Positions 6,335 to 47,744 of a stretch of DNA of 64,000 nucleotides are shown here, piece after piece. The notes beneath the pieces are model-generated. The model made no database searches. It worked only from the letters and a program-made list of their open reading frames with translations, and was not told where the DNA came from. The stretch spans positions 1 to 64,000 of the forward strand of contig JANXSG010000135.1 in the NCBI GenBank assembly GCA_025352825.1, in the 5' to 3' direction. The DNA comes from Chthonomonadaceae bacterium (GTDB lineage Bacteria > Armatimonadota > Chthonomonadetes > Chthonomonadales > Chthonomonadaceae). Each line of letters begins with the position of its first letter. The first letter of the stretch is position 1. A program made the position numbers and the translations under genes.

Positions 6335-7468
6335 ATGAGTGGTAATAACATTGCAATTATAGGGGGAACCGGGTTTGAATCTCTCCCGCCTGAAATATAC
6401 GCCGATGAGATTGTTGTTGAAACGAGATTTGGGAACGTGACCGTTCTTAGCGTTTCTTATAACTACGTCGAGCCGTACAAACTCTATTTCCTTCCCAGGC
6501 ATGGAAGCGATCACAGTCTGGCCCCTCACCAGATAAACTATCGTGGAAATATTGCAGCTTTGCAGCAGCTCGAAGTGGATTCTATCTTTGCCTCGAATGC
6601 GGTCGGTTCTCTACGAACTGACCTGCTGCCCGGGCAGTTTGCGCTGCTCACGGACTTCATCGACTATACCCGCGCCCGACCTCTCTCTTTTTTTGGTGAA
6701 GGTGAAGTTTGGAAACATACTGATTTCTCTATTCCATATAGCGATGAGTTACGAAAAGCTATAATGCAAGCGGCTGAAAACAGTGGCATTTCTCTTTTAC
6801 AACAGGCAACCTATCTCTGCTGCGATGGACCCAGATTTGAATCTCCTGCCGAGGTGAGACTATTTGGTAGCTGGGGTGCGGATGTGGTCGGGATGACGGG
6901 ACTGCCCGAAGCCATCTTCGCCCGAGAAGCAGGAATACAGTATGCTGCCTTGGCTATCGTAACAAACCTCGGGGCAGGTTTAACTTCGGAACCCGTAGAT
7001 CATAATGAAGTATCGAGATTGATGCGGGAGAAGCTGCCGGAAGTGCGGGAACTTCTTCTCGCGGCAGCTGCACAGCTTGTAGAGAGTAGAGTAATAAAAC
7101 GGGATTCTACCTCACCCCTGTCCCCCTCTCCCATATTGCTCGATAGCTCGCAAGGAAGAGGGGATGACACGGTCGATAATCTCAGCCCATGCAGGGAGAC
7201 TAAGCGACCGAAAATGGGCTTTGCAAATCCAGCGCGGGGTTTTAGGGGACGAGAAAGTAATGCGAACATAGTCCAAAATTCGCAATTACATCTCACCCCA
7301 ACCCCTCTCCCGAGCGTTCGTTCCTCACTGGGAGAGGAGCAAATGCAGGATACAGTCACCCCCTCTCCCTTGCGAGCTATCGAGCAGCCTGGGAGAGGGG
7401 GACGGGGGGTGAGGTGTAATTGTTTTACTTTCACAGTCCCTTTAACCCCGGCGTCCAATTGGCATTGA
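6335..7468 (+). CDS. S-methyl-5'-thioadenosine/nucleoside phosphorylase (MTAP family) with repeat-derived C-terminal extension
   Basis: IIGGTGFES, PRHG, CCDGPRFESPAEVRLFGSWGADVVGMTGLPE motifs; residues after about 258 are encoded by GC-rich repeat DNA. Confidence 0.8.
   Translation: MSGNNIAIIGGTGFESLPPEIYADEIVVETRFGNVTVLSVSYNYVEPYKLYFLPRHGSDHSLAPHQINYRGNIAALQQLEVDSIFASNAVGSLRTDLLPGQFALLTDFIDYTRARPLSFFGEGEVWKHTDFSIPYSDELRKAIMQAAENSGISLLQQATYLCCDGPRFESPAEVRLFGSWGADVVGMTGLPEAIFAREAGIQYAALAIVTNLGAGLTSEPVDHNEVSRLMREKLPEVRELLLAAAAQLVESRVIKRDSTSPLSPSPILLDSSQGRGDDTVDNLSPCRETKRPKMGFANPARGFRGRESNANIVQNSQLHLTPTPLPSVRSSLGEEQMQDTVTPSPLRAIEQPGRGGRGVRCNCFTFTVPLTPASNWH
7111..7420. repeat. Composite GC-rich hairpin repeat array with inverted ends
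   Basis: cctcacccctgtccccctctccc at the left end and gggagagggggacggggggtgagg at the right; TGCTCGATAGCTCGCAAG loop appears in both orientations. Confidence 0.8.
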
Positions 7469-19664: not shown

Positions 19665-20056
19665 GAGGTAATTGCAAAACTCAAAATTTGTACATATTTG
19701 ATTACTGCTCTGCCTAAACCCCCGGCCCCCTTCCCTGCACACACAAACGATAAAGCTGTTTGTGTTAGGGCAGGGGGAGATACAACGATAAAGATTCCCC
19801 CTTCCCTGATTCCCTCCGAGGTACGAGGGAATCAGGGAAGGGGGTTGGGAGGGCGGGTCAAGAGTCTTTCTGAAATTTTTGATTGAAAAAAAATCGCTCT
19901 ACAATGCCCATACAAGCGACGAAGATTTTTTTGACGCTGATCTGACATTGAAAAACAGCGACTTATAGCCCATTTACAGTCCGGAAGAGACTTTTGACCC
20001 GCCCTCTTAGGGGGTTAGGTAAAAAATTGTATTTCCATAGGTTTTGCAATCACCTC
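19665..20056. mobile_element. MITE-like element copy 1 (outer TIRs, containing hairpin modules and a ~156-bp inner element)
   Basis: gaggtaattgcaaaact at the left, aggttttgcaatcacctc at the right. Confidence 0.75.
19850..20005. mobile_element. Inner ~156-bp TIR element, copy 1
   Basis: agggcgggtcaagagtct … agacttttgacccgccct (17/18 inverted match); core closely matches 46508-46662. Confidence 0.75.
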
Positions 20057-45076: not shown

Positions 45077-46408
45077 ATGAAAATACCTGTTATAACCGCT
45101 TGTTTAATATCAATCCTGCATTGCCTATTGAATGCCAGTAGTCTAATTGCTCAGCAATCTCCCGCCATCACTCCGCGAATACGGCCTGCCTACGCTGTTC
45201 GACTCGGCGGTGTGTTTTCCATGGGGCTGAGCAAAGGAAGTACACCGTTTGAAGAATCAGCCAATCTAGCAGCTAAAGTTTCCGATGAGAATCGCGTATG
45301 GATTGGAGAAAACTGCGATCTCACTGCTTTCGATTATGTGTCGCTTCCTCCAAGATTTTATGCACCAATCGTGCGTGATCATCCATTATTCACACCTATG
45401 ATTCGAGTAAGCGCCACAAAAATGTTCGAAAATAATAAACACAGCGAGAGCGTCGGTGGCTGGAAAGATGAACTGTTAAAGGCAGCTCTAAAACCAAATT
45501 CTAAAATAATATTACCCATTGATAATCAGGCGCACTGGATGGACTGCTCCTCCAAAGAATGGGCTTCTCACTGGCGCGAACAGGCATATCTCGAAATGCG
45601 CGAAACTGCTGCTCAAGGTGTGGTAGCCACGGATCTGCCTGTGAATCCTAAATTCCCACTATGGACAAGTAGAAACGACACATTTTCGATAAGACTTCAG
45701 TCTGCTTCCGATTTCCTGCAGAGGGTTCATGCTCCCGTGGACTATTTTTTAAATGTGGAGGCAACTGGTTTTAATACTCTTGCTGGCCATACCACACTCC
45801 CACCTGCCTATAGTACAGGACTATCCGAACTCTCAGGGAGATTATGGGACGAGTTAGCGCCACATATCGATGGTGCGTTAGTGAGCGGCTGGGTCTATCC
45901 ATTGGGTGCAGCCAAGCCAACAATAGAAAAGTTTTGGGAGATTGAACTAGAAGCCGCTGACCGATATGCGCGGCAGGATAAAGTATTCATTGCACAAGCC
46001 GCCTATCACAACGATACAGAACTGGAGTATGTGGTAGCGAGCTATCTGTTGGTGGCACACCGACAGGGCAGATTTGTTTTGCAGCCGATGCCAGTTTTTC
46101 CTGGGAGGCGTTTGGATGCAGGGCTAAGTTTACAGGTCTTACAAAAAGAGTTGATTGATAAATCACGGTACTTCAACGTTAAACTTGGATATTCCGATCA
46201 AGAACGCCACCTTATTTCGGCAGAAGGCGGGATGGTCTGGCGCCGCGCCTATGATAGAGGAATAGTGTATGTAAATTCAAGTGACAGTATCACCGTGCGT
46301 ATATTAATGGGTGGAGCAATGCAGCGCATCGATGGTTCTAGAGTGAAATTAGTGCAGCTCAAACCTCATACAGGATGTATCCTGCTCTATTCCACCAGAA
46401 AAATATAG
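45077..46408 (+). CDS. Secreted protein of unknown function, possible hypothetical glycosyl-hydrolase-like (GHL15-like) barrel
   Basis: Signal peptide from internal Met (MKIPVITACLISILHCLLNASSLIAQ); C-terminal RAYDRGIVYVNSS; fold assignment by eye. Confidence 0.45.
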   Translation: MKIPVITACLISILHCLLNASSLIAQQSPAITPRIRPAYAVRLGGVFSMGLSKGSTPFEESANLAAKVSDENRVWIGENCDLTAFDYVSLPPRFYAPIVRDHPLFTPMIRVSATKMFENNKHSESVGGWKDELLKAALKPNSKIILPIDNQAHWMDCSSKEWASHWREQAYLEMRETAAQGVVATDLPVNPKFPLWTSRNDTFSIRLQSASDFLQRVHAPVDYFLNVEATGFNTLAGHTTLPPAYSTGLSELSGRLWDELAPHIDGALVSGWVYPLGAAKPTIEKFWEIELEAADRYARQDKVFIAQAAYHNDTELEYVVASYLLVAHRQGRFVLQPMPVFPGRRLDAGLSLQVLQKELIDKSRYFNVKLGYSDQERHLISAEGGMVWRRAYDRGIVYVNSSDSITVRILMGGAMQRIDGSRVKLVQLKPHTGCILLYSTRKI

Positions 46409-46425
46409 AACATTGATTTAGCATG

Positions 46426-46722
46426 AGGTAATTGCAAAAGTCAGTGCAAATGCATATTTCAGCCATCACCCCCCGACCCCCTCCCAAAAACAGGAGAGGG
46501 GGTCGGGAGGGCGGGTCAAAAGTCTTTCTGAAATTTTCGATTGAAAAAAATCGCTCTACAATGCCCACACAAGCGACGAAGATTTTTTTGACGCTGATCT
46601 GCCATTGAAAAATAGCGAATTTTAGCCCATTTACAGTCCGAAAGAGACTTTTGACCCACCCTCTCGGGGGGTGAGAACCTGAACGAGTTTTTCAACTATC
46701 TTGAGACTTTTGCAATTACCTC
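46426..46722. mobile_element. MITE-like element copy 2 (perfect 18-bp outer TIRs)
   Basis: gaggtaattgcaaaagtc (46426-46443) and gacttttgcaattacctc (46705-46722); contains a GC hairpin and an inner TIR element. Confidence 0.85.
46508..46662. mobile_element. Inner ~155-bp TIR element, copy 2
   Basis: agggcgggtcaaaagtct … agacttttgacccaccct (17/18 inverted match); core closely similar to 19850-20005. Confidence 0.8.
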
Positions 46723-46784: not shown

Positions 46785-47744
46785 ATGGAATATTACCTCG
46801 GCATAGATAGCGGCGGCTCGAAAACAGCCGCACTCATAACCAACTCAGATGGCCAGGAGCTAGGTATCGGGCTCGGTGGTCCTGGAAGCCTCGCAATCCA
46901 GGATGAGGCCGAACTGCGCCATTCGCTACTACAGTCTATCCGGGGTGCTTTGAAATTGGCAGGGATTCCTCTCGATATGAGGTACAAATCGGTCTGTGTT
47001 GGTATCGCTGGTTATTCCGCAGAGCAGAAGAGAGCTTCATATTTTCAGATGCTTCAGGAGACTCTGCTTTCCGAATGTTATCGTATAGAACCAGACTATC
47101 TCACGGCTTATTGGGGCGCTTCGGGAGGTTCTCCAGGAATCGTGGTAATTGCTGGTACTGGCGCTGTCTCATTCGGGCGAAATTCTAAAGGGGAGACACT
47201 CAGGGAAGATGGCTTGGGTTACCTTCTCGGAGATCGAGGCAGCGGGTTCAATCTTGGGCTTCGTGTTATCAGTGGTGTGCTTGAAGAGATGAAAGAGTGC
47301 CGGATATCTCCTCTCTCCAAAAAAATTCTCGAAGAGACAGAAACACACTCTCAAAATGAGATCATGCAGTGGCTATATGGTAATTTCAGCACGGCAAAAG
47401 TTGCCGCGATTGCGCCAATAGTTGGGGAATTCGCTGATGCGGGCGACCAAATTGCGCGCGCACATATTTCGGAAATGGCCAGAAGGCTCCGTCATGCCGT
47501 TCGTCAGATTAGACATCGGTTATGGATGCCGCGAGACATACCTGTCTACACACTTGGTGGACTCTGGAATATTGGCAGCTTCTTTCAAGAGGAGTTTCAA
47601 GATCCCCAGTGGCGGCCAGAGTTGGAATACGCTTTTGTCACGCAGCAGATCCCAGGGGGGCGTTTTAATATTACGGATGCGAAATGTGACGCTTTGCAAG
47701 GTGCGGCGCTTCTCGCAAGAGAGGAGTGCATATGTTTAAAATAG
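46785..47744 (+). CDS. BadF/BadG/BcrA/BcrD-type ATPase, N-acetylglucosamine kinase-like
   Basis: YLGIDSGGSKTAALITNSDGQELGIGLGGPGS, IVVIAGTGAVSFG, GDRGSGFNLGLRVI. Confidence 0.88.
   Translation: MEYYLGIDSGGSKTAALITNSDGQELGIGLGGPGSLAIQDEAELRHSLLQSIRGALKLAGIPLDMRYKSVCVGIAGYSAEQKRASYFQMLQETLLSECYRIEPDYLTAYWGASGGSPGIVVIAGTGAVSFGRNSKGETLREDGLGYLLGDRGSGFNLGLRVISGVLEEMKECRISPLSKKILEETETHSQNEIMQWLYGNFSTAKVAAIAPIVGEFADAGDQIARAHISEMARRLRHAVRQIRHRLWMPRDIPVYTLGGLWNIGSFFQEEFQDPQWRPELEYAFVTQQIPGGRFNITDAKCDALQGAALLAREECICLK

Follow-up and report, generated by a model that had tools for sequence, protein, structure and literature searches.

Nested MITEs and junction-specific insertion into G/C-rich palindromes in a Chthonomonadaceae genome

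The nested locus and its reconstructed host

The window analysed here is a stretch of 64,000 nucleotides, positions 1 to 64,000 of contig JANXSG010000135.1, from the Chthonomonadaceae bacterium assembly GCA_025352825.1. Between two plus-strand open reading frames, one ending at 46408 and the other starting at 46785, lies an intergenic unit of 298 bp (46425-46722, no strand assigned). It is bounded by perfect 18-bp TIRs, GAGGTAATTGCAAAAGTC on the plus strand (46425-46442) and its perfect inverse GACTTTTGCAATTACCTC on the minus strand (46705-46722). An earlier sequence-only reading had described these outer ends as perfectly inverted, which we confirm; it had also placed the right end correctly and the left end one base too far in (46426, for a span of 297 bp). 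The flanks of the unit, GCAT and GCGA, do not form a clean TSD.

Inside this unit lies a second element of 157 bp (46507-46663, no strand assigned) without an ORF of at least 70 aa. Its TIRs have the form GAGGG[C/T]GGGTCAAAAGTCT, with the left copy GAGGGCGGGTCAAAAGTCT on the plus strand at 46507-46525 and the right copy AGACTTTTGACCCACCCTC on the minus strand at 46645-46663. An exact 4-bp duplication, TCGG, flanks the element on both sides (46503-46506 and 46664-46667, plus strand). The sequence-only reading had rightly seen an inner element with TIRs of its own, but its borders (46508-46662, 155 bp) left out one base at either end; the target duplication that it had suspected in a repeated tcggg does exist, as a clean 4-bp TCGG once the borders are corrected. 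The locus is confirmed as one MITE nested in another MITE.

The inner element interrupts the right arm of a G/C-rich palindrome. The left arm, the loop and part of the right arm occupy 46466-46506 on the plus strand, and the rest of the right arm, GGGGTGA, follows the right TSD copy at 46668-46674 on the same strand. When the inner element and one TCGG are removed, a palindromic host element of 137 bp remains, with a folding z of -11.6 that none of the shuffles equalled in stability. The reconstructed host is one long palindrome, which bears out the earlier suggestion that a GC-rich hairpin had been split. An empty site, which that reading had proposed to look for, is provided by an uninterrupted genomic relative (L040) that is 91% identical to the reconstructed host across the junction, over 132 columns. 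The window contains a second nested pair, in which an outer element of type B (19665-20056, 392 bp) carries an inner copy of 158 bp (19849-20006) that is 91% identical and flanked by TTGG and TTAG (3 of 4 bases); again, neither has an assigned strand.

The outer family and its relatives among insertion sequences

The outer TIR matches the 4.87-Mb genome 195 times at up to 2 mismatches, and a reversed control matches once; the outer TIRs are therefore not a product of chance. Both the outer and the inner element are short, non-coding and multicopy, with copy boundaries at the TIRs, as is typical of MITEs; absence of further copies, or copies with other boundaries, had been named beforehand as evidence against a nested MITE. 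The TSD length is fixed at 4 bp in both families, and exact TSDs occur far above shuffled expectation. They were found in 10 of 33 complete outer elements (shuffled mean 0.8, maximum 5), where they are A/T-rich and varied. The outer TIRs enclose differing interiors: type A elements (about 265 bp) contain CCCTCACCCCC... palindromes, type B elements (about 222 bp) contain CCTAACCCCC... palindromes, type C elements (about 199 bp) contain GCGACGAAATGAATTTCTTCGC..., and a TIR-only form measures 49 bp. Five loci (L043, L045, L053, L054 and L059) have outer TIRs around the unrelated palindrome GCGACGAAATGAATTTCTTCGC..., with the same ends and different interiors. At the starts of contigs C22 and C142 (L096, L097), an outer-like TIR, GATGTAATTGCAAAAGTC, is found with a further interior, CGTAGGACAGGAGCTCCGTCTCCTGCC.

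In a scan of public genomes the outer 18-mer was present in many phyla. A Chlamydiae MAG, from an unrelated phylum, holds 291-bp MITEs with perfect GAGGTAATTGCAAAAGTC ends (L219, L238, L245). In the Syntrophobacterales genome GWC2_56_13, a 1510-bp element (L179) has GAGGTAATTGCAAAAGTC at its end and a TSD of TGTT, and encodes a transposase of 365 aa with the domains DUF772 and DDE_Tnp_1. A similar element of 1398 bp (L151) occurs in a genome of the same order as that of the window, and the MITEs of that genome have the matching TIR variant and 4-bp TSDs. The L179 transposase shares 43-48% identity with that of L151 or of plasmid copies annotated IS1182/ISUnCu17, one of which is annotated as ISUnCu17 (45%; ends GAGCCTCTTGCAAAAGGC / GAGCTTCTTGCAAAACTC, TSD ATGA). 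Since it scores 68.8 bits against the NCBIfam IS1182 model, below the curated cut-off of 270, the assignment to IS1182 is based on homology to ISUnCu17, shared ends and shared TSD length.

The TIRs of the outer element are common to autonomous members of the ISUnCu17 clade, whose TSDs (TGTT, ATGA, TGGT) have the same length of 4 bp. The likeness consists of the TIR pattern GAG-N4-TTGCAAAA-NTC together with the 4-bp TSD; the differences are that the elements of the window encode nothing, that the copies of the clade in this genome are decayed, and that the inner TIR differs in its six central bases. One such decayed copy (L258) has the ends GAGGTAATTGCAAAAGTG / GAGCCTTGTGCAAAAGTC, and a similar pair of unlike ends recurs in outer MITEs such as L039 and L088. 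Judging from these sequence comparisons, the outer element is very probably an IS1182-type MITE carrying a G/C-rich palindrome. In the assembly (95% complete, 298 contigs) we found fragments and decayed copies of the clade's transposase and no intact one. A MITE can outlive its transposase partner, so that this lowers the case for present activity and not the case for descent.

A search for the domain DDE_Tnp_1_2 (PF13586) gave no match. Three other candidate movers of the outer element were rejected. The IS4-family IS L091 has an ORF between outer-like TIRs, but its own ends are AATTCTGTTCGGTTAACAT and it is itself nested in an outer element; the IS4 elements L089 and L090 have their own TIR, CATAGGCGTTAGG, and represent further insertions into the palindrome; and the IS1182-like L093 (contig C53) has a long ORF but the TIR TAAAAGCGTGATGAA.

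Insertion of the inner element at one palindrome junction

The core of the inner TIR matches the genome 64 times and its control 6 times, and these TIRs are likewise not due to chance. Our sample of the inner family comprises 41 unique copies or ends. Of these, 25 are complete and 16 are truncated where a contig stops, so that the physical copies number 33-41. Reading of the flanks placed all 41 at the same CCCC-NNNN-CCCC junction of type A or type B palindromes; an automatic motif test typed the palindrome for 29 of the 41; the 12 that it failed to recognise have arms that are degenerate or truncated. The genome also has about 326 vacant CCTMACCCCNNNNCCCC sites (2 in the control), which make up about 5.5 kb of 4.87 Mb, roughly 0.1%, and random insertion cannot produce 41 out of 41 in so small a target. 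In the window, unoccupied junctions of the target type lie at 7110, 7398, 14027, 28443, 28592 and 58051. This site-directed insertion into palindromes, which the sequence-only reading had missed, is in our view the more interesting part of the system.

Among the 21 inner copies with both flanks, 14 have an exact 4-bp duplication (shuffled mean 1.4, maximum 7) and 17 match in at least 3 of 4 bases. The duplications agree within a site and differ between sites (TCGG, TTAG, CCAG, CCGG, CCGT, CAAC and others), and insertions are found in both orientations, in both palindrome types and in either arm. The two orientations, the differing 4-mers and the two palindrome types argue for independent insertions. 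A recognisable outer TIR is present on at least one side in 23 of the 41 and none is nearby in the other 18, and thus the target that the copies have in common is the palindrome and not the outer TIR. The inner element is also younger than its type A hosts, as judged from a lower median divergence from the consensus (1.9% versus 8.7%). An old inner copy, 27% diverged (L079, 1554-1748), has a groEL-like 3' end on one side and, on the other, a CTCCCGAAGCTTCGGGAG hairpin with T's after it, a setting which indicates that the palindromes can coincide with terminator-like hairpins. Moreover, many contigs break off some 140 bp inside the inner element (C26, C71, C85, C89, C94, C164, C173, C184, C239-C241 and others), so this repeat helps to explain part of the fragmentation of the assembly.

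The same palindromes are abutted by a second family with the TIR CATARGCGTTARGTTAA, made up of IS4-type elements (L089, L090) and a MITE of roughly 211 bp. A C/G-run expression matched 24 of 31 of its end flanks, and visual inspection revealed a degenerate arm in most of the remaining 7. The duplication made by this family (L089, L090, L114, L321-L350) may be about 10 bp. A further IS4 element, L091, is located in a palindrome of type B; at 380-1642 it has an intact-looking IS4-family transposase nested in a type B outer element. An IS4-type family, unrelated to the inner MITE, hence uses the same palindrome junction.

Competing explanations and significance

The locus and its relatives are, with high probability, best explained as nested MITEs, the outer of IS1182 type and the younger inner one inserted in a target-directed manner into REP-like palindromes. 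A transposase supplied in trans would direct the 157-bp inner MITE nearly exclusively to the 4 bp that separate the C-runs of the palindrome, and insertion at CCCC-NNNN-CCCC would duplicate the 4 junction bases. An IS1182-like transposase would move each family, and the choice of site would come from its recognition of the C-run palindrome rather than from selection removing other insertions. Mobilisation in trans had already been proposed from the sequence, and a family with autonomous members sharing the outer ends indeed exists; for the inner TIR, no such partner was found. Searches of 291 genomes of the phylum and of viral contigs yielded no autonomous element carrying the inner TIR GAGGGYGGGTCAAAAGTC. 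In the other 290 phylum genomes the TIR stays at background (52 have 1-2 matches, equal to the reversed-control level), and no convincing TIR pair was seen among the loci read in relatives. The viral contigs gave 25 single exact matches, with no paired TIR and no transposase homologue, and the inner element sequence was absent from 60 relatives.

Whether selection alone could have produced the pattern deserves consideration. The inner element might insert widely and survive only in dispensable palindromes; these are intergenic where examined and tolerate other insertions, including the IS4-type family. Selection, however, would be expected to leave insertions scattered along the palindromes and elsewhere between genes, and every copy sits at the same 4-bp junction, which makes this account improbable. 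More doubtful by far is the idea that the nested unit arose in one or a few events and was then multiplied by homologous recombination or gene conversion among palindromes, or by the outer element transposing as a composite. The hundreds of related palindromes would offer ample homology, and some composites do share host sequence (L006, L011, L015, type B), but the mixture of orientations, palindrome types, arms and site-specific duplications, and the 18 inner copies away from any recognisable outer TIR, have largely refuted it. Another question regards the enzyme itself. The inner element could be moved by the transposase of the outer one through relaxed recognition of GAGG-N6-CAAAAGTC ends: the two TIRs are identical at 12 of 18 positions, including GAGG and CAAAAGTC (skeleton GAGG...CAAAAGTC), and both elements make 4-bp TSDs. 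We consider this unlikely, although somewhat less so than an origin by selection, because target choice differs, with varied, A/T-rich duplications for the outer element and confinement to C-run junctions for the inner one. A separate transposase, related to that of the outer element, fits the inner element better.

Returning to target-directed insertion, its closest counterparts are the insertion sequences that target REP sequences, of which ISRm22 (10 of 10 copies) and ISPpu10 (7 of 7) are found in REPs (Tobes and Pareja, 2006; PMC1525189). Like these elements (IS1397, IS621, ISPpu9/10, ISRm22; PMC1525189), the inner MITE is multicopy and specific to extragenic palindromes, with 41 of 41 copies or ends in equivalent positions. 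Here, in contrast, what inserts is a gene-less MITE of 157 bp, its target palindromes frequently form part of MITEs, and one junction serves at least two unrelated families. With bacterial MITEs both elements have in common the short length, the lack of an ORF, TIRs, TSDs, multiple copies and intergenic location; strict target-site specificity and regular nesting set them apart. The host palindromes, as abundant G/C-rich hairpins, also resemble REPINs and RAYT-linked REP sequences (PMC3116915; PMC2817692). In a literature search on nested bacterial MITEs, IS1182 targeting, terminators and Armatimonadetes, which covered few subscription journals, nothing came closer than the work on REPs. That insertion sequences can target extragenic palindromes is known; the present case differs in having a MITE as the inserted element, palindromes often located in MITEs and a junction common to more than one transposon family, an arrangement for which the papers searched gave no description.

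A more tentative reading, which we hold to be possible but on balance not the likelier case, is that the G/C palindrome serves transposons in general as a landing hub. Recognition of the CCCC-NNNN-CCCC junction would then have evolved independently in several unrelated transposases, namely the IS1182-like enzyme of the inner MITE, that of the IS4-family IS with its MITE of roughly 211 bp, and that of another IS4 element, and mobile elements would accumulate within other mobile elements and not in genes. A gene-less element that is effectively absolute in its choice of junction, in palindromes that are often mobile in their turn and are shared with an unrelated transposon family, is a natural system in which to ask if transposases read the sequence or an extruded hairpin; with filled sites and roughly 326 empty ones in the same genome, this question can be tested. 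Finally, the pattern illustrates how numerous insertions can be accommodated in a genome at little cost to its genes.
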